Shown here piece after piece: positions 1 through 9,175 of a DNA stretch of 9,175 nt. Origin of the DNA: Archaeoglobales archaeon (lineage in GTDB: Archaea > Halobacteriota > Archaeoglobi > Archaeoglobales > Archaeoglobaceae); contig QMZF01000024.1 in the NCBI GenBank assembly GCA_003663055.1, positions 1-9,175 on the forward strand, given 5' to 3'. The first letter of the stretch is position 1, and every line of letters starts with the position of its first letter. The translations under genes were made by a program, and so were the position numbers. The notes under the pieces are model-generated. The model was given only the letters and a program-made list of their open reading frames with translations. It was not told where the DNA came from and searched no databases.

Positions 1-323
1 TCGCAAAGGCCGATCCAATAAAGGGTGAGATTCCACTGATATACGTCGTTCTCAAGAAGGGTTGCGAACCAAGTGATGAGATGGTGAGGGAGTTGAAGAC
101 ACACTTGAGATCTACGATGGGGCCCGTTGTTGCATCAGATGCTATGATAACGTTTGTTGAGATACTACCAAAGACTAGGAGTGGTAAGATAATGAGGAGG
201 CTGTTGAGGGCTGTTGCCGAAGGTAAGCCCTTAGGAGATGTAACGACACTTGAGAGTGATGTTGCTGTTGAGGAGGCGAAGAGGGCTTATGAGATGGTGA
301 AGTCCGCACTTGAGGGTGTTTAG
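1..323 (+). CDS. acs: Acetyl-CoA synthetase (AMP-forming), C-terminal end, partial
   Basis: About 106 C-terminal residues of an AMP-forming acetate-CoA ligase; the 5' part lies outside the window, and the frame is open from base 3. The enzyme converts acetate, ATP and CoA to acetyl-CoA, AMP and PPi in the cytoplasm. The diagnostic stretch is PKTRSGKIMRR; its second lysine (codon 186-188) is the catalytic lysine that is reversibly acetylated in well-studied bacterial Acs. Before it comes STMGPVVASDAMITFVEILP, the usual approach to that motif, and after it the LGDVTTLES segment and a charged C-terminal helix, both typical of Acs tails. The downstream symporter genes fit a role in acetate assimilation. 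A propionyl-CoA synthetase or another Acs-like acyl-CoA synthetase cannot be excluded from the tail alone. Confidence 0.93.
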   Translation, partial: AKADPIKGEIPLIYVVLKKGCEPSDEMVRELKTHLRSTMGPVVASDAMITFVEILPKTRSGKIMRRLLRAVAEGKPLGDVTTLESDVAVEEAKRAYEMVKSALEGV

Positions 324-406
324 ATAAAAAATTGGGGGTGATGTGGGTGGAGCAATACAGTTTGGTTTGTGTTGGATTAAAAACTTTTGGATTGCAGGGG
401 TGAAAA

Positions 407-642
407 ATGATGGCAGAGGTTGCAGAGGTCGAATTTAAGGAGATTGCAAGGACGACGCCAACTTGGCTTGGTGCGCTGCTAGACGACATGCTTGCACACA
501 AGGCTGTGAGCGAAGCGGCAGTCATAGGCGAGCCGAGAATTCTGAGGGCTATAGAGAAGGGTGAGGCGATAGGAGACGCAACAACGCTCGAAGACGAGAC
601 AGCGTTGAGGAGGCGAAGAAGATAGTGGAGGAAGCGGAATAG
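407..642 (+). pseudogene. Decayed second acetyl-CoA synthetase copy (internal deletion plus frameshift)
   Basis: Read from the ATG at 407, this gives a 72-residue product made of two pieces of Acs that are not adjacent in an intact enzyme. Residues about 21-43 (LLDDMLAHKAVSEAAVIGEP and neighbours) match the segment where Acs reads roughly LGTAELEDxLxxHxAVxEAAVIG. It is joined directly to RILRAIEKGEAIGDATTLED, which normally follows the catalytic-lysine motif. About 60 residues, including PKTRSGK, are therefore missing at a junction near 535/536. Near 604 one base is lost: the annotated frame runs into an Arg-rich tail and stops at 625. The next frame reads VEEAKKIVEEAE and stops at 640-642, matching VEEAKRAYEMVKSA at the end of the upstream gene. 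The first 20 residues are not recognisable. Most likely a relic of tandem acs duplication; a functional small protein is unlikely. Confidence 0.82.
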
Positions 643-668
643 AAATAATTTAGAATTTAAATAATTAT

Positions 669-704
669 TGAAATTGTGTATTAAAGTTGGGCTAGTCTGG
701 ACTA
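669..704 (+). promoter_or_regulatory. Putative promoter with palindromic operator for the symporter operon
   Basis: A purine-rich BRE-like stretch (669-674, TGAAAT) is followed by a TATA-like GTATTAAAG at 678-686. This would place transcription start near 708, ahead of the small symporter subunit. Between the two lies a perfect dyad, TAGTC-TG-GACTA (693-704), at a position where a bound repressor would block initiation. The elements are short and the region is AT-rich, so this is a suggestion only. Confidence 0.3.
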
Positions 705-737
705 TCTCGGAGGTTTGTAAGGTTTGGAGGTGTGCGG

Positions 738-1013
738 ATGGGGATTGATGTGAAAGGAAAAAAGAAGGAAGAAGCGTACAGGGAATACTGGAGGAAGCTG
801 AAGGTAATAACAGTCGTATGGATGTTGCTGTGGACCATACCCGCCATACTTCTGCACATCCCAATTGAAACAACCAAGTCTATCAGAATTTTCAACGGAA
901 TACCGCTGCACTGGTTCAATGCTGCGTTTCTGGCGGTTGTCATTGGAATACTGCTGATCTTTGCCTACGCGTTTGTAATGGACAGACTCGATAGAGAAAT
1001 TCTGGGAAAATGA
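738..1013 (+). CDS. Sodium:solute symporter small subunit (DUF4212)
   Basis: A 91-residue protein with a charged N-terminus, an EAYREYWRKLK segment, two hydrophobic helices (about residues 22-40 and 58-80) and the ending FVMDRLDREILGK. The YW(R)...L pattern and the terminal MxRLDRE motif are typical of the DUF4212 small subunit that accompanies one class of SSF sodium:solute symporters. It is an inner-membrane partner of the next gene; its exact role is unknown for the family. The ATG at 738 is chosen because GGAGGT at 726-731 lies 6 nt upstream. A GTG at 732 would abut that ribosome-binding site with no spacer. The stop codon overlaps the ribosome-binding site of the large subunit gene, so the two are probably translated together. 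Confidence 0.9.
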   Translation: MGIDVKGKKKEEAYREYWRKLKVITVVWMLLWTIPAILLHIPIETTKSIRIFNGIPLHWFNAAFLAVVIGILLIFAYAFVMDRLDREILGK

Positions 1014-1022
1014 GGTGGTACC

Positions 1023-2777
1023 ATGGGATTGGGAGGTAAAAATGCGATTATCGCAGTGTTCGTGTGCTATTTCGCTGTAGTTGCAGCAATAGCATCAACG
1101 GGGAACACGTTCGTAGCTTCTGCCGTAGCCGTCTTTGGCTCGCTCTTCATATACCTTGCAGTGGCTCTAATAATGAGGTCGCACGCCGCTGCAGACTTCT
1201 ACGTTGCAGGCAGGGACATAGGTGCAATACCCATAGGGTCATCAATTGCATCGAACTGGATGAGCGGCGCATCTTTCGTTTCAATGGCAGGAGCCATTGC
1301 CCTTCTTGGCTTCGACGGACTGCCGTACATCATAGGATGGACTCTCGGTTATTGCATCGCAGCATTCATGATCGCTCCGTTCATAAGGAAGTCTGGAACG
1401 TATACAGTTCCGGAATTCATTGAAACGAGAGCAGCGAACTGGTCTGTTGCAAGGCTTATAGCAGTTCTAATGCTTTTCATAGTCTCGTTCACGTATTTGA
1501 CTGCTCAGCTTGTCGCAACAGGAGTCATCATCGGGAGATTCCTCGGAATTCCCGCAGTTATCGGGGCATTTCTTGGGTCTGCGGTAGTTATACTGTTCGC
1601 GGGAACTGGAGGCTGGAGGTCTGTCGTCTGGGTTCAGGTTACCCAGTACTGGATACTGATAATCGCCTACTGGGTTGCGTTCATCATAGCAGCGTTTGCA
1701 GCAGGAATATTTAATCCGTGGCCGCATTTTGGATATGGCGAGCTACTAAGTCAGCTTGAGGCAAGAGAAGTATCATTTGGTCTTCTACCGTTCACAGAAC
1801 CCTTTGCAAGAGCTTTCGCCGGAGGAACTGGGCAGCTCAACTGGATTCTTGGAGCCCTCGTTCTGATGCTTGGAACCGTCGGCTTACCGCACGTACTATC
1901 GCAGTTCTACCTGGTTAGAGATGTCAGAACAGCAAGATACGGTGTTGGATGGGGTCTGACGTTTATAGCGTTGCTTTACGTTACAGCTCCTGTCTATGCC
2001 ATACTCGCAAGGTATGCCTTCTCACAAGTTTGGGGCATGCCCGCTGAACAAGCATCGCAACTCGGATGGATACAGAAGTGGCTTCCTACGGGACTCGTGA
2101 AGCTCAACGATCTGAATGCCGACGGAATAATTCAACCGGCTGAGCTTTCATTCCATAAGGACATAGTTGTCATTGGAATGCCGGACATGTGGGGGCTGAT
2201 TTGGTTCATCGCCGTAATAGTTGCAGTTGGTGGACTTGCGGCAGCGTTAAGCACTGCAAACGGATTGCTAATGGTTATGACCGTAGGGGCAACGAGGGAC
2301 ATATACAAGAGATTCATAAATCCGAAAGCGTCAGAAATCAAGGAAATATGGATTGGCAGAACAATGCTTGTGTTGCTTGCTGTGATTGCCGGAATTCTTG
2401 GCTCACTTGCTATAAGCGATCCAACGTTCTCTAAGTACGTCGCATTGCTCGTTGGTTGGGCTTTCGTCTTCGCTACTGCATCATTTACACCGTCGGTAAT
2501 ACTGGGCATATTCTGGAAAGGGCTCAACAGATACGGTGTGGTTGCAGGAATGATTGCAGGGATGGCAGTTGCTCTGCCTTACGTTGCTGGAGTCGGATTG
2601 TTTGGAATGGAGCCGATAGTGATAGCAGGAAACAAGATCGGCACGATAGCTTGGGGAATAGTACCGTTCTTCGTTAACCTGATAGTGTCAATAATAGTCT
2701 CGCTTATAACTGGAGGAGAAAAACAGAACCCGCCAGAAACGATCAGGTTTGTCGATGAGATGAAGATGCCAGGATAA
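1023..2777 (+). CDS. Sodium:solute symporter, large subunit, probable acetate transporter (SSF family)
   Basis: 584 residues, about 13 hydrophobic segments. SSF signatures include FYVAGRDIGAIPIG (59-72), ASNWMSGASF (76-85), a GWxxGY region (105-110) and GGLAAALSTANGLL (403-416). The last is the TM8-equivalent where Ser/Thr residues form the Na2 site in vSGLT and PutP. Proteins paired with DUF4212 form a distinct SSF branch, often next to acs, so Na+-driven acetate (or short-chain carboxylate) uptake is likely. Residues 363-374 carry an EF-hand-like loop (DLNADGIIQPAE) in a soluble segment before the TM8-equivalent. GAGGTG just upstream of the ATG at 1023 supports this start, and the gene lies 9 nt after the small subunit. 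The substrate is inferred from context; other monocarboxylates are possible. Confidence 0.92.
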   Translation: MGLGGKNAIIAVFVCYFAVVAAIASTGNTFVASAVAVFGSLFIYLAVALIMRSHAAADFYVAGRDIGAIPIGSSIASNWMSGASFVSMAGAIALLGFDGLPYIIGWTLGYCIAAFMIAPFIRKSGTYTVPEFIETRAANWSVARLIAVLMLFIVSFTYLTAQLVATGVIIGRFLGIPAVIGAFLGSAVVILFAGTGGWRSVVWVQVTQYWILIIAYWVAFIIAAFAAGIFNPWPHFGYGELLSQLEAREVSFGLLPFTEPFARAFAGGTGQLNWILGALVLMLGTVGLPHVLSQFYLVRDVRTARYGVGWGLTFIALLYVTAPVYAILARYAFSQVWGMPAEQASQLGWIQKWLPTGLVKLNDLNADGIIQPAELSFHKDIVVIGMPDMWGLIWFIAVIVAVGGLAAALSTANGLLMVMTVGATRDIYKRFINPKASEIKEIWIGRTMLVLLAVIAGILGSLAISDPTFSKYVALLVGWAFVFATASFTPSVILGIFWKGLNRYGVVAGMIAGMAVALPYVAGVGLFGMEPIVIAGNKIGTIAWGIVPFFVNLIVSIIVSLITGGEKQNPPETIRFVDEMKMPG

Positions 2778-2790
2778 AATTTTAAATTTA

Positions 2791-2798
2791 TTTTTCTT
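2791..2798 (+). terminator. T-tract, possible archaeal terminator of the symporter operon
   Basis: A TTTTTCTT run lies 13 nt after the stop codon of the large symporter subunit, in a very AT-rich 69-nt gap. Archaeal RNA polymerase terminates at such U-tracts without a hairpin. No stem-loop is visible. Read-through into the DUF1646 gene remains possible. Confidence 0.4.
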
Positions 2799-2808
2799 AA
2801 TATTTTAC

Positions 2809-2822
2809 GAAAAACTATTTTT
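2809..2822 (+). promoter_or_regulatory. Putative promoter of the DUF1646/nucleotidyltransferase operon
   Basis: CGAAAA (BRE-like, 2809-2814) followed by CTATTTTT (TATA-like, 2815-2822). This is about 29 nt upstream of the ATG at 2847 and would give a very short leader. The whole gap is AT-rich, so another TATA position (around 2799-2808) is equally conceivable. Confidence 0.3.
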
Positions 2823-2846
2823 AGTTGTAGTGCATGCGGTGGAAGG

Positions 2847-3938
2847 ATGACTGTAATTTCCGCAGAGCCCATACCACACATCGCTGCTAGTTTATTTACG
2901 ATCTTCCTGATAGTACTAATTCTGCCATTCAAAGTCAGGAAAATAGAAGAAAACCTAGAAGCTTTCTTTCTTGCAATGGGTATACTTGCCGTAACGGTTT
3001 CAAGTCTCTGGAGTGTTGAACTCGTGAAGGAAGCTTTGAAGGATCCTGTAAGCGTGGGCGGTTTGCCCATAGGCATATTCCAAGTTGTGCTCTTTGCGGG
3101 AATTGCAATCTACAAGTTCAGCAGACAGATATACGGCGGTATTATTAGCGCCATGAACAAACTCGGCTTGAGATTCTTCGTTTTTCTGCTCATACTGCTG
3201 TTAAGTCTTGCATCGAGCATAATATCGGTGATAGTAACTGCTGTTATTCTTTCCGAGATAATAGCAGTCATGCCAATTGAGAGAGAGAAGAAGGTTAAAA
3301 TTACCGTTATAACGTGCTTTGCCGTTGGATTGGGAGCTGCTTTAACACCTGTAGGTGAACCTCTATCAACAATAGCTGTCTCGAAGCTTAAGGGCGAGCC
3401 TTATCATGCGGACTTCTTTTTCCTCTTCGATCTGCTGGCCGTGTACATCATACCTGGGGTCGTTGTGCTGTCTGTTCTTGGTTCCATGCTCGTGAGTAAA
3501 GCGAAGGGCAGTACGGAGGTGCCAGAATATACGGAAAGTCTTAGATTTGTTATTTTAAGGGCTTTTAGAGTCTACATGTTCGTTGCGGCCTTAGTTCTAC
3601 TGGGGAGGGGTCTAACACCCCTCGTTATATGGTACTTTACGAAAATTCCTCCTCAAGTACTGTACTGGGTGAACATGATCTCAGCAGTATTGGATAACGC
3701 CACACTCACCGCAGCAGAGATAGCACCACAACTCAGCTTGATGCAGATAAAAAGCGCCCTAATTGGCCTACTTATTTCTGGAGGAATGCTGATACCGGGA
3801 AACATACCAAACATAGTTGCAGCAGGAAGGCTCAGAATTACGAGCAAGGACTGGGCAAGGACAGGCGTTCCGCTCGGCCTTGTGCTGATGACCGTATACT
3901 TTGTTATTCTGCTTCTGGAGGGCTCTGTCCATGCTTGA
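2847..3938 (+). CDS. DUF1646 family predicted cation transporter
   Basis: 363 residues, about 9-10 membrane helices. It resembles the archaeal DUF1646 group, which by motif layout belongs with the ion transporter superfamily that includes NhaD and ArsB. There are two repeat-like signature regions. The first is GLGAALTPVGEPLSTIAVSK (161-180), a discontinuous-helix motif. The second runs from SAVLDNATLTAAEIAP (279-294) to GGMLIPGNIPNIVAAGR (312-328), with the conserved Asp-Asn pair and GN-PN motif expected at an ion site. The likely role is Na+/H+ antiport or another cation or anion exchange; the substrate is unknown. A purine-rich GGTGGAAGG lies just before the ATG. Its last 8 nt overlap the next gene, so it is probably translationally coupled to the CBS-nucleotidyltransferase. 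Sodium handling would complement the Na+-driven symporter upstream (inference). Confidence 0.85.
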   Translation: MTVISAEPIPHIAASLFTIFLIVLILPFKVRKIEENLEAFFLAMGILAVTVSSLWSVELVKEALKDPVSVGGLPIGIFQVVLFAGIAIYKFSRQIYGGIISAMNKLGLRFFVFLLILLLSLASSIISVIVTAVILSEIIAVMPIEREKKVKITVITCFAVGLGAALTPVGEPLSTIAVSKLKGEPYHADFFFLFDLLAVYIIPGVVVLSVLGSMLVSKAKGSTEVPEYTESLRFVILRAFRVYMFVAALVLLGRGLTPLVIWYFTKIPPQVLYWVNMISAVLDNATLTAAEIAPQLSLMQIKSALIGLLISGGMLIPGNIPNIVAAGRLRITSKDWARTGVPLGLVLMTVYFVILLLEGSVHA

Positions 3939-5313
3939 GGGCTTTGACTTGCAGGCTGTGAGGATAAGGGACATAATAATCGATGAGCCAGCTATTGTGC
4001 ATCCTTCAATGAGCATAAGAGATGCGGCGAGGCTAATGGATAGGATGGGAAAATCCTGTGTGCTTGTGGCGGATGTTGAAGTGAAGGGCATAGTTACTGA
4101 GGGAGACATAAGAAGGGCTGTGGCAGGCGAAGTTGAGTCTTCGGAACCTATAAGTAAAATTATGACCACGAACTTGATTACAATTGACGAAAATGCAACG
4201 CTCTTCGATGCTGTCGTTCTATTCTTCAAAAACGGTATAAGACATCTCCCGGTTAAGAGAGGAAAGAAGATAACTGGCGTGATAACGATTAACGAAGTTC
4301 TGCTTTTTGCTTCCCGCATTCCATTCTACTTTCTTGACAGTTCTGCAAAGGCCCAGAGCATATGGGAGCTCAGATCGATATACTCAAGGCTCAATGCATA
4401 CATTCTCGAAATCCTTGCAAGGGACGAATACACCAATCCGGTCTACTTTGGCAAGATACTCGGCTACATAAACGACCAGATACTCAGGAGCGTTGTTAGG
4501 TTAAGCATCGAGGAATTGGGCAAACCCCCTTCAAGGTTTAGCTTATTTGTCACGGGCAGCGAAGGCAGGCTTGAGCAGCTTATAAAAAGCGATCAGGATA
4601 ACGCAATGATCTACGAGAACGCAGCCCACAGAGATTACTTCGTTGAACTTGGCAGACTAATACACTCGAATCTCCTTGAAATAGGCTTTCCCGATTGTAG
4701 AGGTGGTTACACTGTTGGTAATGAAGAGTGGGTTAAGCCAGCAGAAGATTGGATCAATCTGATTTCTGAGTGGGGATCCGTTTTTTCTTCAGAGAATCTG
4801 CTTAACATCTCTATATTTGCAGACATGAGATTGGTTTACGGAGACGTTTCACTCTTTAACTACGTTAGAAGTGCACTCTACAGACTCGGGGAGAAGGAGG
4901 CGATATTCGTAAAACTTCTCAGCGAAGCTTTGAAGTTTAGACCTCCCGTGGGCTTCGCCGGAAGATTAACTTCGGAAGTATTGGACATTAAAAAGGATGC
5001 CATAGCTCCAGTTGTAATGCCGATTAGAGCTCTCGGTCTTAAATTCAACGTGAAATCGCACAACACTGCTGATAGAATTGAAGAACTTTCTGGAAAGGCT
5101 ATGAGCCCAGAATTAGCAACTAATCTGAGGATGAACTACGTTTTCCTTAAAAGAATGCAGTTTTTAACGCAGGTCAAGAACATAAGACTTGGTAGACCGG
5201 AGATCAACCGGTTAAAGCTCAAGGAATTGCCAAAGCTAAGGGTGGACTTTATAAAAAACTCTTTAAGAAGCATTGCTGAATTTCAGAAAATGATTGCAGC
5301 GAGGTATCTTTAA
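3931..5313 (+). CDS. CBS-pair / GlnD-like nucleotidyltransferase (DUF294 with DUF294_C), catalytic signature intact
   Basis: 460 residues from the ATG at 3931, which has GGAGG 9 nt upstream; the frame stays open to an upstream TTG at 3901 that is less plausible. Two CBS motifs cover about 11-65 and 74-130 and probably bind adenine nucleotides. A helical linker leads to a DUF294 nucleotidyltransferase: GSEGRLEQ (209-216) then SDQDNAMIYE (220-229), the GS...DxD pattern of the Pol-beta/GlnD fold with D221 and D223 as metal ligands. FADMRLVYGD (296-305) and the helical DUF294_C region (about 280-455) follow. The N-terminal cNMP-binding domain often seen in bacterial relatives is absent. It presumably transfers a nucleotidyl group to a protein or small molecule, by analogy with GlnD; the target is unknown. 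It overlaps the DUF1646 gene by 8 nt and ends 8 bp from a convergent gene. Confidence 0.88.
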   Translation: MLEGFDLQAVRIRDIIIDEPAIVHPSMSIRDAARLMDRMGKSCVLVADVEVKGIVTEGDIRRAVAGEVESSEPISKIMTTNLITIDENATLFDAVVLFFKNGIRHLPVKRGKKITGVITINEVLLFASRIPFYFLDSSAKAQSIWELRSIYSRLNAYILEILARDEYTNPVYFGKILGYINDQILRSVVRLSIEELGKPPSRFSLFVTGSEGRLEQLIKSDQDNAMIYENAAHRDYFVELGRLIHSNLLEIGFPDCRGGYTVGNEEWVKPAEDWINLISEWGSVFSSENLLNISIFADMRLVYGDVSLFNYVRSALYRLGEKEAIFVKLLSEALKFRPPVGFAGRLTSEVLDIKKDAIAPVVMPIRALGLKFNVKSHNTADRIEELSGKAMSPELATNLRMNYVFLKRMQFLTQVKNIRLGRPEINRLKLKELPKLRVDFIKNSLRSIAEFQKMIAARYL

Positions 5314-5321
5314 ATTCTGAG

Positions 5322-5909
5322 CTACCATATGAATTTCTCTCTCTTTCCTATTCTACTAAGCTCTGCAAGACTAACTCCGTATTCTGACAATCTTATCAGC
5401 TGTTTCTGAAATATGCAGGCCGTATAGTACGCATCGGCAAGAGCTGTGTGCCTGTAAATCTTGCAAAGTCCGTACTTCTCTATTAGCCCATCCATATCTA
5501 GATCCTCATTTCTTCCCTCTCTTCTCGCGAGCCATCTCTCAATCTGGGAAATGTCAACCCAATCGAACTCAAACTTCATTTTAACTTTCGAAAAGTGATT
5601 TTTGAGAATTTCAGCATCGAATTCTGAGTAGCACACAACGACACTGCCCTCAACGATTCTCCTAACCCTTTCGGCTATTCTCTCAAAGCTAGGTGCTTCA
5701 TTTATTGCATCTATCCCTATTCCGTGGAACTTTATAGACTCGGCCCTAAATTTTTTTGGCTTTACAAGGCTGAAAAAGTACCCTCCTATAAGAATTCTGC
5801 TTCCTAACATTGGAATTATGGCTATTTCGATTATCTCATCTTTCTTCGGACTTAAACCTGTGGTCTCCACGTCTAAGGCTGAGTATCTAGCAGAAAGAAT
5901 TTCTGTCAT
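5322..5909 (-). CDS. DEDDh 3'-5' exonuclease, DnaQ/PolC-epsilon-like
   Basis: 195 residues with all acidic motifs of the DEDDh fold. ExoI is LDVETTGL (D13, E15), ExoII is VVCYSEFDAEIL (D98) and ExoIII is HTALADA (H154, D159, spacing H-x4-D). It should degrade DNA or RNA from the 3' end using two metal ions. It has no polymerase or BRCT domain. In ExoII the usual His-Asn before the Phe-Asp is replaced by Tyr-Ser-Glu. I recall similar GYYLEFD-type motifs in exonucleases encoded beside DUF294 genes in bacteria, so this probably belongs to that associated group and not to replication proofreading. The ATG lies in an ATGA overlap with the stop of the upstream cNMP/CBS gene, so the two proteins are very likely made together. 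Confidence 0.88.
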   Translation of the reverse strand: MTEILSARYSALDVETTGLSPKKDEIIEIAIIPMLGSRILIGGYFFSLVKPKKFRAESIKFHGIGIDAINEAPSFERIAERVRRIVEGSVVVCYSEFDAEILKNHFSKVKMKFEFDWVDISQIERWLARREGRNEDLDMDGLIEKYGLCKIYRHTALADAYYTACIFQKQLIRLSEYGVSLAELSRIGKREKFIW

Positions 5910-7462
5910 AAGCTCTCCTGAATTTTCGCCAATATCTTGTTTGCCTCTTTCATTAGCAATTCATCGACCTTGCCAAGTGAACTTCCAAGGATTTCTCGCA
6001 ATGATACGTCCATAACTACGCTGTATGCCTCTCTAGCTTCGCTAACTTCATTTTCTTCCCCTTTAAGCTCTAGAGCTTTGATTGCAAATAGAAAAGCTTT
6101 GGCTATGTCTGTGCATCTCTTTGACTCCTCTACAAATACTTTTATAACATCTTCCCTCTTTTCTTCCAGCATTTTGTCAAATTTCCCTTTCCATGCAAGA
6201 TAGAGTTCCTTAGGACCGAAGATATACTTTGTGTCCATGAACATCAGGATGTCCTGGGCAAACTCTCTCGGAGACGAGAACCACTCGTCTATCGTTTCCA
6301 TCCAGCTGTTTAGGGTGCTGGAAGTGTCAAGAGGCTGTGCTCCTATTCTTCTGAGGGAGGAAACAAACTCGTGCCAGTCTTCGGCTATGATGCCAAGATG
6401 CATTGGTGGAAAGACCAGACTCTGCCTCGCTGCATCGCCAGCAAAGAATACACAACCTTCAAAGCTTAACTGAGCGCATCTTTTTACAACAAGTTCGTAA
6501 ATTCCGCAGGCTATTTTTGACATTTCATCAAAATCTGCACCGCTGATGACCATATTCTCTATCGACGACTTTATTTCTTCCATTATTTCTTTAAGCTCGT
6601 CTATTCCTGCTCTAGCAACTTTTCTGGATATCGAAAGTAGTGAAGAAGCTGAACTTAGTTTTAAAAGGAGGTCTTTGGTCGAGACAACTCCCTTTATACC
6701 TCCGTCACCCATAACGACTATGTGGTTTATCGCATTCGTAACGATTGCAAGGTACGCTTCAATTAGACTATCGTTCTCATTTATGGAGATAACCGGAGAG
6801 GTCATGTATTCTCCAACGCTATCCTCCAGATCCTTGCCCCTGGCAATTAGCTTCATTAAATCTCTCTGGGTGAAAACGCCAACGGGTTTTCCATCGGCAA
6901 CGACTACGACAGAACCAACCCTGTTCTTGTCCATTATTTTCGCAGCTTCAACCACGCTTGTTTCTGGACTGCACGTAACCGCTTTCCTCGAAACTATCTC
7001 GGATACCTTTATGCTGTACAAGTTCTCCAACCCATGACTGGATTTTTTGGAGAGTTTGAGCAACGAAGACAGTCTCCTTGATAGCAAGCTCGTGAAGAAG
7101 TCGGAAAATTTCTGGTTGGAGTTAAATACCTTCAGAAAGCTGTTCCTTCTTATGAGATAGCAGACGGAATCTTCAAGTGCAATAGCCGTAAACCTTGGTG
7201 GATTGCCGCTTATCGCTGACGCAACACCGAAAACGTCACCATCTGTCAAGATTTCCTCGTGTCCATTCTTCAGCTTCACCCGCCCGGACTTCAGTAGGTA
7301 AACGTACTTCAGTGGTTTCCCACTCTTCTTGAATATCATCTCTCCTTTACGAAATACCTCCGATTCTAGACTGCCGATAACCTCTTCAAGCTCTCTCTCA
7401 CTCAAGAACGAGAAAGGCTTATGTTTTTTCAGGTATTCGAAGGGGGGAAGTATCTCAATCAT
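5906..7462 (-). CDS. cNMP-binding-fold / CBS-pair / DUF294-like protein with inactivated nucleotidyltransferase signature
   Basis: 518 residues. A cyclic-nucleotide-binding fold covers about 15-130, a CBS pair about 150-268, then a DUF294-type domain and a DUF294_C-like helical tail. The domain order matches bacterial DUF294 proteins, but active-site residues are gone. Where the plus-strand neighbour has GSEGR...SDQDNAMIYE, this protein has AGDAARQ...PPMHLGIIAE (341-361), so both metal-binding aspartates are lost and GS became GD. VYGD became IFGP (414-417). The cNMP cassette reads FGVASAISGNPPRF (78-91), without the Glu of the usual FGE, so cyclic nucleotide binding is doubtful. Most likely a regulatory pseudoenzyme that senses nucleotides through CBS or cNMP domains and acts on a partner, plausibly the active paralogue. 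No Shine-Dalgarno precedes the ATG. The first ATG of the open frame is used. Confidence 0.87.
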   Translation of the reverse strand: MIEILPPFEYLKKHKPFSFLSERELEEVIGSLESEVFRKGEMIFKKSGKPLKYVYLLKSGRVKLKNGHEEILTDGDVFGVASAISGNPPRFTAIALEDSVCYLIRRNSFLKVFNSNQKFSDFFTSLLSRRLSSLLKLSKKSSHGLENLYSIKVSEIVSRKAVTCSPETSVVEAAKIMDKNRVGSVVVVADGKPVGVFTQRDLMKLIARGKDLEDSVGEYMTSPVISINENDSLIEAYLAIVTNAINHIVVMGDGGIKGVVSTKDLLLKLSSASSLLSISRKVARAGIDELKEIMEEIKSSIENMVISGADFDEMSKIACGIYELVVKRCAQLSFEGCVFFAGDAARQSLVFPPMHLGIIAEDWHEFVSSLRRIGAQPLDTSSTLNSWMETIDEWFSSPREFAQDILMFMDTKYIFGPKELYLAWKGKFDKMLEEKREDVIKVFVEESKRCTDIAKAFLFAIKALELKGEENEVSEAREAYSVVMDVSLREILGSSLGKVDELLMKEANKILAKIQESL

Positions 7463-7486
7463 ATTGATTAATCATTGCTGTTTGAC

Positions 7487-7500
7487 TTAAATAGTTTGCT
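7487..7500 (-). promoter_or_regulatory. Putative leaderless promoter of the cNMP/CBS-exonuclease operon
   Basis: On the minus strand a BRE-like AGCAAA is followed by CTATTTAA (7494-7487). The TATA centre lies about 28 nt upstream of the ATG at 7462, so transcription would start at or next to the start codon. The absence of a ribosome-binding site there agrees. Confidence 0.5.
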
Positions 7501-7504
7501 TAAC

Positions 7505-7520
7505 TGAAACTCTTTTAAAA
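7505..7520 (+). promoter_or_regulatory. Putative leaderless promoter of kptA
   Basis: GAAAC (BRE-like) and TTTTAAAA (TATA-like, 7513-7520) are centred about 27 nt upstream of the GTG start at 7543, which has no Shine-Dalgarno. A second TATA-like CTATAAAA lies at 7526-7533 but would put the start inside the gene. It shares an 80-bp intergenic region with the divergent minus-strand promoter. Confidence 0.5.
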
Positions 7521-7542
7521 TCTTCCTATAAAAGTTTATAGC

Positions 7543-8112
7543 GTGGAAATCAGGATAAGTAAATTCCTCAGCGGACTGCTAAGGCATTTTGGCCCTAAAT
7601 TTGGCATTGAATTGGACGAGGACGGATGGGCAGAGCTTGAAAAGGTTGAGAGAGTAGTCAGGGAAAGGTATGGTGTTGGAAGGGATATAATTCAGCGCAT
7701 AGTTGAAAAGGATGCAAAGGGAAGGTTTGAGTTAGCGAATGGGAGAATAAGGGCGAAGTATGGCCATAGCGTAGCTGTGAATACCAGGTGGAGTGAGAGC
7801 AGCGAAATTCCACCAAGGCTCTACCACGGAACGAGACCTGAGGCAGTAAATTCCATTCTTGAACGTGGTTTGCTTCCGATGAAGAGGCTTGAGGTTCATT
7901 TGAGCGAGAGCGTGAAGGAGGCGATTGAAGTTGGGAGAAGGCACTGCAAAAATCCCGCTGTTCTAGAAATCGATGCAAAGGGTATGCTTAGGAAGGGCTA
8001 TGAGATAAGGAAGAAGGGGAAGGTTTACACAGCGGATTTTGTCCCACCAGAGTTCATTCGTGTGAAAAATGATTTGAACGACGATTTTGAACAAAATAAA
8101 GTAAGAAATTGA
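7543..8112 (+). CDS. kptA: RNA 2'-phosphotransferase (Tpt1/KptA)
   Basis: 189 residues. The family removes a 2'-phosphate from spliced tRNA or other RNA by transferring it to NAD+, releasing nicotinamide and ADP-ribose cyclic phosphate. The N-terminal winged-helix part has ISKFLSGLLRHFG with the catalytic Arg-His pair (R14, H15), then DEDGWAELE and KGRFELANGRIRAKYGHSV with R70 before GHS. The C-terminal ADP-ribosyltransferase-like part has YHGTRPEAVNSILERGLLPM (94-113), KRLEVHLS (114-121), and VGRRHCKNPAVLEID. One oddity: the usual R-x-H-V-H pattern reads R-L-E-V-H here (E117). There is no N-terminal zinc-ribbon such as I recall in some archaeal homologues. Start is GTG at 7543; no in-frame upstream coding sequence is evident. 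Apparently monocistronic. Confidence 0.93.
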   Translation: MEIRISKFLSGLLRHFGPKFGIELDEDGWAELEKVERVVRERYGVGRDIIQRIVEKDAKGRFELANGRIRAKYGHSVAVNTRWSESSEIPPRLYHGTRPEAVNSILERGLLPMKRLEVHLSESVKEAIEVGRRHCKNPAVLEIDAKGMLRKGYEIRKKGKVYTADFVPPEFIRVKNDLNDDFEQNKVRN

Positions 8113-8134
8113 ATCAGCTAAACTATTGACATCT

Positions 8135-8415
8135 TTATAGCAATTTTAGAATTTCATCTATCAAGTTCTGATCGGTCAAGAAAGTATGCGGCACTTGCAG
8201 TCTATCAGACTTTTAGCCTTAATAAGAACTCCGAAGGTTCAGGGAACTTTCAGATCCAACGACCTGGCTATTCTCCTCCTCTTTTCGTCAAGCGGAATTG
8301 GGAGACTTTCCCCTTAGCCAGCGCTATTGCCTCTGCTTCATCTAAGCTTGCCTATCTTTCAATCTCCGTTTTTAGGATTCTTCTTTACTTCTATCCTCAA
8401 TCCACTGCTGAAAAA
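8135..8415 (-). pseudogene. Decayed PIN-domain toxin gene, DUF3368-like
   Basis: On the minus strand, fragments in different frames follow the order of a DUF3368 PIN protein. First, a Trp-Ile-Glu start near 8404. Then ASLDEAEAIALAKG (8351-8310), resembling the LDxGEAEAIALA motif. Then LTKR (8291-8280), IARSLDLKVP, a stop (8241-8239) and TFGVLIKAKSLID (8238-8200), resembling IAxxLGLKVxGTxGVLLxAKxxGLID. Finally LIDEILKLL and TAA (stop at 8137-8135). At least two frameshifts and an in-frame stop separate them, and the N-terminal region carrying the first catalytic Asp is not recognisable. This is a dead toxin gene, tail to tail with kptA. Family assignment rests on remembered consensus, so the DUF3368 label is less certain than the pseudogene call. 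Confidence 0.68.
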
Positions 8416-8470
8416 GATAGTGTACATTCACACTTCCTACTTCTTGCCAAATAACTCAAATAATCAACAT

Positions 8471-8487
8471 CAAAAGCTATATACTTA
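8471..8487 (+). promoter_or_regulatory. Putative leaderless promoter of vapBC
   Basis: CAAAAG (BRE-like) followed by CTATATACTTA (8477-8487). The TATA centre is about 25 nt upstream of the ATG at 8506, and there is no Shine-Dalgarno before that ATG, so the transcript is probably leaderless. RHH antitoxins usually repress their own promoter, but I see no clear operator repeat here. Confidence 0.55.
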
Positions 8488-8505
8488 TTTTGTAAACATT
8501 ATTTC

Positions 8506-8730
8506 ATGGAAACTTCAGTCTACAGCATAAGAATACCAAAGGAAGTTAAGAAGATGATGGAAGAGATGAAGGATGTGAACTGGCAGGCAGAGCTTAGGAG
8601 GTTGATAGAGGAGAAGATAAGAGAAGAGTACAAAAAGAGGATTCTGAGTGAGGCAAGGGAAATAAGAAAGAAGATGAAGACTTCCGTTCCTGCAGCCGAA
8701 CTGATTAGGGAGGATAGAGATGAAAGGTAA
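8506..8730 (+). CDS. vapB: VapB-type antitoxin, ribbon-helix-helix (CopG-like)
   Basis: 74 residues. A short N-terminal strand (SVYSIRIPKEV, 4-14) is followed by a Lys/Glu-rich helix and WQAELRRLIEEKIREEYKKR, the pattern of archaeal RHH antitoxins that dimerise through the strand and bind DNA. The C-terminal part (about 45-74), highly charged and ending in AAELIREDRDER, would wrap the toxin and block its active site. It overlaps vapC by 11 nt, which keeps the two proteins in step. The start ATG fits a leaderless transcript. The family gene symbol is used in the general sense; which of the many archaeal VapB groups it belongs to is not determined. Confidence 0.87.
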   Translation: METSVYSIRIPKEVKKMMEEMKDVNWQAELRRLIEEKIREEYKKRILSEAREIRKKMKTSVPAAELIREDRDER

Positions 8731-9142
8731 AGTCGTTTTAGATTCGAGCGCAATAGTGGCTTTGTTCTTCCAAGAAGATGTATCTGAAAGGGTAGAAGAA
8801 GTTGTTGAGAAATATTCGGAGTATTACACAGTCAGTCAAGCTTATTCAGAAGTTGCCAACGCTGCTTGGAAGAGGGTTAGGATTTACGGCGAGGACGAAG
8901 GTCTTTCGAAGCAAGCTTTGGAAAAGGCAGTTGAGTTCATGGATAGGGTTTGCAGGGTGGAAGATAGCAAGATACTTCTAAACTCAGCCTTTGAAATCGC
9001 ATTGAAGAACGGGATAACTGTCTACGATGCTTTGTTCATAGCCCTTGCGATGAAGCTCAACGAGAAGCTTGTGACAACGGACAGAAAACTCTATGACAGA
9101 ATTAAGAAGACGGAGCTTGTAAAGTTTGTAAAGTGCGTATAG
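8720..9142 (+). CDS. vapC: VapC-type PIN-domain ribonuclease toxin
   Basis: 140 residues, the standard VapC size. All four acidic residues of the PIN active site are present: D8 (VVLDSSAIVALF), E44 (AYSEVANAAW), D103 (TVYDALFIALA) and D121 (VTTDRKLYDRI). VapC toxins cleave tRNA or rRNA with Mg2+ when released from the antitoxin. The ATG at 8720 has GGGAGG 6 nt upstream inside vapB and overlaps its end by 11 nt, so translation is probably coupled. Intact and presumably active; in hyperthermophilic archaea such pairs are numerous and often linked to stress responses. The RNA target cannot be told from sequence. Confidence 0.93.
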   Translation: MKGKVVLDSSAIVALFFQEDVSERVEEVVEKYSEYYTVSQAYSEVANAAWKRVRIYGEDEGLSKQALEKAVEFMDRVCRVEDSKILLNSAFEIALKNGITVYDALFIALAMKLNEKLVTTDRKLYDRIKKTELVKFVKCV

Positions 9143-9152
9143 AGTTCTGCAC

Positions 9153-9158
9153 TTTTTT
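9153..9158 (+). terminator. T-tract after vapC, possible terminator
   Basis: A run of six T lies 10 nt after the vapC stop codon, followed by a second T-rich step (GCTTTG). This is suitable for archaeal U-tract termination. No hairpin is evident. Confidence 0.4.
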
Positions 9159-9175
9159 GCTTTGACATGCATCAA

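Follow-up and report, generated by a model that had tools for sequence, protein, structure and literature searches.

Active and catalytically dead DUF294 proteins beside a likely archaeal acetate-uptake cassette: a candidate three-part nucleotidylation switch

A 9,175-nucleotide stretch of DNA from an Archaeoglobales archaeon (assembly GCA_003663055.1, contig QMZF01000024.1, positions 1 to 9,175; hereafter the window) carries, downstream of the 3' end of an acetyl-CoA synthetase gene (acs) and the genes of a two-subunit symporter, two DUF294-type nucleotidyltransferase proteins, one with an intact catalytic motif (A) and one in which this motif is ruined (B), and between them the gene of a DEDDh exonuclease-family protein (EXO). 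Why should an acetate-uptake locus keep an enzyme and its dead relative side by side, together with an exonuclease? Part of the answer is observed: the division of DUF294 into an active and a dead chain arose at least twice and with the same polarity. This division with its repeated origin and the linkage between EXO and the sensor chain are new here, as is the association of the division with the small symporter subunit DUF4212 in Archaeoglobi. The other part is a reading to which a probability of about 0.4 is given, namely that the locus is a three-part protein-nucleotidylation switch for acetate uptake, with A as the writer, B as the sensor and regulatory subunit and EXO as the eraser.

Protein A matches the DUF294 families (PF03445 and PF10335) above their curated cut-offs and carries the intact motif GSEGRLEQLIKSDQDN, in keeping with the description of A in an earlier note on this DNA as an active-looking CBS-DUF294 nucleotidyltransferase. 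All of its active-site residues are present (G209, S210, R213, E215, D221, D223 and D298), and all 15 aligned A proteins keep the catalytic residues. In a structure model with a mean pLDDT of 89.6, A appears to adopt a nucleotidyltransferase plus helical domain fold of the GlnE/GlnD kind, and the closest solved structures are the protein adenylyltransferases GlnE and DrrA, which bears out the nucleotidylation-type fold that had been proposed. CBS and cNMP domains occupy the structure lists, in which few nucleotidyltransferase entries are found; the absence of other families there is thus meaningless, and other enzymes are possible. For DrrA/SidM, whose nucleotidyltransferase domain is a protein AMPylator, the likeness to A is one of fold only, the biology being unrelated.

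In B the same alignment columns hold GDAARQSLVFPPMHLG, and the catalytic G-S...D-x-D signature of DUF294 is absent. Both motif Asp are missing in 14 of 16 B proteins, including that of the window, and at least one is missing in all 16; an Asp is retained at the second position in locus L144, the one departure among the 12 B proteins of the archaeal loci described below, and at the first position in the relative P0005. The C-terminal ~250 residues of window B match no Pfam family, and the assignment to DUF294 comes from its relatives: P0005 and P0006, 47 and 44% identical to B, contain PF03445/PF10335, the B protein of genome G038 scores 22.2 bits with neighbouring stretches against a DUF294 cut-off of 21, and B falls inside the DUF294 tree. 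The description of B as a DUF294-like pseudoenzyme thus holds, both in the window and across its relatives.

EXO belongs to the DEDDh class, with D13, E15, D98, H154 and D159 all present (DEDHD in the window). The residues are complete in 35/35 Archaeoglobaceae EXO proteins, and across 82 proteins shorter than 320 aa (those of 320 aa or more being excluded from this count) 80 or 81 retain the residue at any given position; the exceptions are gaps and, at the third position, a single Glu. EXO lies within 300 nt of a DUF294 gene in 35/35 Archaeoglobaceae loci, and its start overlaps the stop of B by 4 nt in the window, next to the cNMP-bearing chain. In a wider set of loci, of related sequences, EXO accompanies 46 of 65 chains with a cNMP domain vs 2 of 13 without one; 8 of the 86 chains were excluded from this comparison, five cut by a contig end and three with short flanks. 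Two long exonucleases found near DUF294 genes (L043:15368-17485, 705 aa; L071:6933-8972, 679 aa) have a long N-terminal part, PAS-like in L043, and are possibly a fused, sensory form of EXO.

Among 59 Archaeoglobi genomes, 28 encode a cNMP-CBS-DUF294 protein at E <= 1e-30, and two arrangements occur. System I consists of a single intact chain of 582-616 aa plus EXO (23 loci fetched), and System II of acs, DUF4212, symporter, A, B and EXO (12 loci, the window counted); both are present in seven genomes (G010, G011, G013, G014, G024, G025 and G026). A and B stand in tandem in L128, L129, L132 and L140 and are convergent in the remaining eight System II loci. DUF4212 is found in 13 of the 59 genomes, A (distinguished from other DUF294 matches by length and tree) in the same 13, and B in 12 of these, G009 being the genome that lacks it. 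The recurrence of the A/B/EXO set in 12 loci of Archaeoglobi, the window included, shows that the arrangement is not chance.

The pair had been described as a split DUF294, that is, as two halves of one gene. Two quick trees of hand-picked DUF294 sequences (one of 83 rows, one of 60 rows with some long branches) contradict this. In the 83-protein tree the 12 B proteins group with four dead relatives in a single clade (SH-aLRT 99), which pairs with the intact archaeal System I clade (support 97, and 91 in the 60-row tree), and the A proteins form a separate clade (97) together with an Altiarchaeales protein; A is therefore not a fragment of the ancestor of B. The A clade and the B clade each split into an Archaeoglobus-like group, with DQDN in its A proteins, and another whose A proteins have DRDT. 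A comparable pair exists in Thermodesulfobacterium thermophilum, where locus L042 carries an ActP-type symporter and, behind it, a cNMP-CBS-DUF294 chain that has GAHGRREASFKTKLK; EXO comes next and then an intact CBS-DUF294 chain that lacks cNMP. Relatives of the dead chain at E <= 1e-40 occur in 11 of 41 genomes of Thermodesulfobacteria; four of them (G059, G328, G331 and G334) carry both chains with the order and motifs of L042, and in the remaining seven there is one chain only, with its motif intact and, in G341, its frame interrupted. A single loss of catalysis for all dead forms is rejected in the 60-row quick tree, long branches included (16 rows dead; constrained tree 142.7 log-likelihood lower, AU p 2.6e-6). 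In either origin it is the dead chain that bears the cNMP domain.

Beyond these lineages, 80 named loci were analysed, the best 80 of 576 confirmed stretches; they were found by catalytic-motif patterns, and the frequency of dead forms can thus not be measured from them. In 48 of the 71 loci that could be evaluated (nine with short flanks and no visible exonuclease were dropped), no more than 300 nt separate EXO from DUF294; such loci occur in Aquificota, Chloroflexota, Thermodesulfobacteriota, Deinococcota, Bacteroidota, Acidobacteriota, Nitrospirota and Pseudomonadota (Calditrichota, 0/1). Exonuclease-family genes more than 1.5 kb away from any DUF294 gene number four in 115 loci (1.97 Mb). 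Within 5 kb there is a symporter-family gene in 27/57 named loci, DUF4212 in 10/57 and an acs-like gene in 13/57. In this motif-seeded set, 69 of 86 DUF294 chains combine a cNMP domain with an intact motif. The recurrence of DUF294 with an exonuclease across domains, as the earlier note expected it, is thereby supported. A general link of DUF294 to DUF4212 is rejected: a 295-genome phylum sample contains 46 genomes outside Archaeoglobi with DUF4212, and none of them has a DUF294 match at E <= 0.001. Among side observations, L078:8849-11356 encodes a DUF294 protein in which Cache and PAS domains replace cNMP, with DUF4212 and a symporter near; L062:2111-4837 encodes a CrbS-like symporter-histidine kinase near DUF294, and SSF proteins of similar ~900 aa length occur in L043, L046, L061, L063, L065, L072, L087 and L096. 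Two DUF294 genes, both intact, are present in the bacterial loci L040, L061, L096, L102 and L109.

In the proposed switch, A would attach a nucleotide, probably AMP, to a target that is presumably a protein and not a nucleic acid. B, having lost its catalytic Asp and retained its sensor domains and, in the model, its fold, would likely serve as the regulatory partner of A, and the CBS pairs would read the adenine-nucleotide state. EXO would act as a phosphodiesterase that removes the nucleotide; DEDDh enzymes release 5'-NMP from a phosphodiester. The symporter next to A is the predicted target, and Acs and the DUF1646 transporter are the other candidates. Among the relatives covered, most have one chain that would do the work of both A and B; in the window catalysis would lie with A, the exonuclease having been kept by the sensor chain. 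The earlier note had proposed that adenylate status is read by both DUF294 proteins and passed on as nucleotidylation: the fold, the pseudoenzyme and the exonuclease association speak for this, and the general DUF4212 tie and the notion of A and B as halves of one gene have fallen away. A more specific form must be called doubtful: a heteromeric switch for protein AMPylation, evolved on at least two occasions, in which catalysis is left to one DUF294 chain, the cNMP/CBS chain is a pseudoenzyme regulator and a DnaQ-type "exonuclease" is the de-AMPylase acting on an acetate symporter. If true, it would to our knowledge give DUF294 its first function and add a new task to those of DEDDh enzymes.

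The closest published counterpart, likened here by description, is the operon of a cNMP-CBS-DUF294 protein and a 3'-5' exonuclease in the CrbS/R (MxtR/ErdR) acetate regulon (Pflu5625; PP_0354/PP_0353; PA3232-PA3235), which shares with the window the kinds of domain, the exonuclease neighbour and the tie to an acetate symporter and acs (PMC5715377, PMC9927547, PMC9765439). In published work, Pflu5625 is a CrbS/R target (PMC5715377), PP_0354 is raised on acetate (PMC8402216) and PA3232-PA3235 form a cluster with ActP (PMC9765439). The association of DUF294 with an exonuclease in bacteria and the idea of nucleotidylation are already published (PMC5715377, PMC9927547), the former paper referring to Aravind and Koonin 1999 for the prediction; the Pseudomonas papers leave the function of DUF294 unexplained. 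In the CrbS/R operon sensing and catalytic domains are annotated on one chain, whereas in the window they are distributed over two, of which the sensor chain B is dead and the intact chain A lacks cNMP; its uptake cassette, with a TIGR03648 large and a DUF4212 small subunit, is also of the VC_2705 type, unlike that of the CrbS/R operon. GlnE, unlike the window system, has neither CBS nor cNMP domains. The eraser of GlnE is a second nucleotidyltransferase and that of GlnD an HD domain, and neither is a DEDDh protein. In Bacillus, the AcuA-AcuB-AcuC control of AcsA likewise places a writer, an eraser and a CBS energy sensor beside acs (PMC13121692). It differs in using lysine acetylation, in having no writer or eraser family in common with the window and in the ACT domain of AcuB; no acetyltransferase or deacetylase of the AcuABC kind is found by Pfam among the ten window proteins scanned. 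A literature search in which subscription journals were mostly outside the scope returned no description of an active/dead DUF294 pair and no publication naming DUF4212.

The history of the locus bears on the target. The window symporter shares 77-80% identity with the System II symporters compared from five loci of other genera (L128, L132, L140, L142 and L146), but 42% with that of the congener L118 and 44% with that of L119, the last two sharing 93%. The proteins A, B and EXO, in turn, track the congener, with 75, 69 and 65% identity to L118. The intact acs tail is closest to an acs of L146, from another genus (87% amino acid identity over 104 residues), where the matching acs sits on the far side of B. 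The 324-731 gap between the acs tail and DUF4212 holds a relic of an older acs 3' end (Table 1), across which a 72-aa frame has no Pfam match. As judged from sequence, an older acs-DUF4212-symporter cassette was likely replaced in place, leaving an acs scar, and DUF1646, A, EXO and B stayed; the comparison suggests another Archaeoglobaceae genus as the source of the replacement. Distance correlations of 0.85-0.92 among A, B and EXO, and of 0.42-0.59 between these and the symporter, are accompanied by a permutation test that only partly controls for relatedness.

Several of these results weigh against the three-part switch. With the symporter exchanged and A, B and EXO kept, an enzyme specific for this symporter would have needed to tolerate the swap. 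The fold likeness of A to GlnE and DrrA does not demonstrate function, and the same literature search returned no assay of any DUF294 protein; in two bacterial species, deletion of the counterpart gene is reported to have no or negligible effect on growth on acetate (negligible for Pflu5625, PMC5715377). The parts do not always travel together either: A is present, and B and EXO are missing, on a 13-kb contig of genome G009 (locus L155) and on the Altiarchaeales contig L038, and four loci with an intact archaeal DUF294 outside Archaeoglobaceae (L156, L180, L181 and L182) have no EXO, symporter or DUF4212 in 16 kb. Haloferax volcanii, a named control, has DUF4212 and no DUF294 match, like the 46 genomes above. 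Finally, the cyclic-nucleotide pocket varies among B proteins, its PR element being present in 6/16, so that cAMP is not the general ligand of B, and the dead domain is the fastest-evolving part of B in five of six pairs compared.

This last finding, together with the loss of both Asp in most B proteins and a pN/pS of up to 0.46, would suit the view that B is a degenerating paralogue retained by linkage in an incidental neighbourhood. The pN/pS values of 0.29 and 0.46 come from two saturated pairs, however, and the unsaturated ones show purifying selection on the dead domain (omega 0.08-0.13), on which ground a decaying pseudogene is rejected; with at least two origins and unbroken frames of B across 12 loci, incidental retention is the least probable of the explanations weighed here. 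An arrangement in which A writes alone and B is a nucleotide-sensing regulatory subunit of EXO only, with no complex between A and B, would account for the constant proximity of EXO to DUF294 in Archaeoglobaceae, its overlap with B, its preference for cNMP chains and the two loci in which A stands alone. It is nevertheless unlikely, if still to be reckoned with: B never occurs without A in the loci examined (12/12 archaeal, 4/4 bacterial), and EXO alone would not require a dead nucleotidyltransferase domain under selection.

Two further explanations reassign the substrate. The nucleotidyltransferase could tail, and the exonuclease trim or degrade, transcripts of the uptake genes; EXO belongs to the DnaQ/RNase_T proteins and has its DEDDh site intact, and the authors of the P. 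putida work speculate on mRNA decay (PMC9927547). The nucleotidyltransferase entries listed for the model of A, in lists otherwise full of CBS domains, are protein adenylyltransferases, however, and Pfam finds no RNA-binding domain in A or B, which makes an action on RNA quite improbable. A nucleotide second messenger made by A, degraded by EXO and read by the cNMP/CBS domains would explain why a nucleotidyltransferase, a phosphodiesterase-type enzyme and two types of nucleotide-binding sensor are co-located, but the fold matches of A are protein-modifying enzymes and the cNMP pocket differs between genomes, and such a signal is very improbable. The three-part switch itself would have consequences beyond the window, as DUF294 proteins, often partnered by an exonuclease, belong to acetate regulons or lie beside organic-acid symporters in many bacteria. 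If it is true, a P. putida strain without the exonuclease should be rescued by loss of the writer, and organic-acid uptake would have a post-translational control layer common to archaea and bacteria, in which a DnaQ-family enzyme plays a new role. Since sensing and catalysis are divided between two genes in the archaeal and Thermodesulfobacterium loci, each part can be assayed singly.

The window, contig 24 of a 76% complete, Archaeoglobus-like draft genome, encodes A and B proteins 75 and 69% identical to their Archaeoglobus veneficus counterparts. The genes that the earlier note described are confirmed at the positions it reported (Table 1).

Table 1. Features of the window, with position, strand and supporting evidence.
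Feature	Position	Strand	Evidence
acs (acetyl-CoA synthetase) 3' end, truncated at window edge	3-323	+	AMP-binding_C 52 bits; PRK00174/TIGR02188 C-terminus
Relic of older acs 3' end, not a gene	492-634	+	43 nt 91% and 103 nt 86% identical to separate parts of L118 acs 3' end
DUF4212 small symporter subunit	732-1013	+	PF13937 60 bits (cut-off 30); TIGR03647 40 bits
Sodium:solute symporter, VC_2705 family	1023-2777	+	TIGR03648 475 bits (cut-off 321)
DUF1646 predicted cation transporter	2847-3938	+	PF07854 454 bits
A: CBS2-DUF294-DUF294_C without cNMP domain, predicted writer	3931-5313	+	PF03445 109 bits, PF10335 86 bits, two CBS
Catalytic motif of A	4555-4602	+	Aligned motif columns; invariant columns
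EXO: DEDDh exonuclease-family protein, predicted eraser	5322-5909	-	RNase_T 85 bits
B: cNMP-CBS2-pseudoDUF294, predicted regulatory subunit	5906-7462	-	cNMP 60 bits, two CBS 94 bits
Ruined catalytic motif of B	6392-6439	-	Same alignment columns as motif of A
KptA/Tpt1 RNA 2'-phosphotransferase, adjoins B	7543-8112	+	PF01885 124 bits
VapB-like antitoxin (NF050799) and PIN-domain VapC-like pair	8506-9142	+	

A overlaps the DUF1646 gene by 8 nt, and EXO and B are convergent to it, eight bases separating the stop of A from EXO on the opposite strand. DUF1646 is present in only three of the 12 System II loci, those of the window, L118 and L119. In bacteria a Na+ riboswitch is known ahead of DUF1646-family genes (PMC9337991); as a candidate upstream of the window gene it was rejected, the family being missing from the E-value scan of the window, in which the three listed rows all fall below the gathering score. 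No histidine kinase or response regulator is found by Pfam among the ten window proteins scanned, the search being confined to these. A sub-threshold match to the CRISPR direct repeat family RF01360 (29.7 bits against a gathering score of 39) lies at 8356-8392 on the minus strand, and the KptA/Tpt1 gene stands next to B in L118 too.

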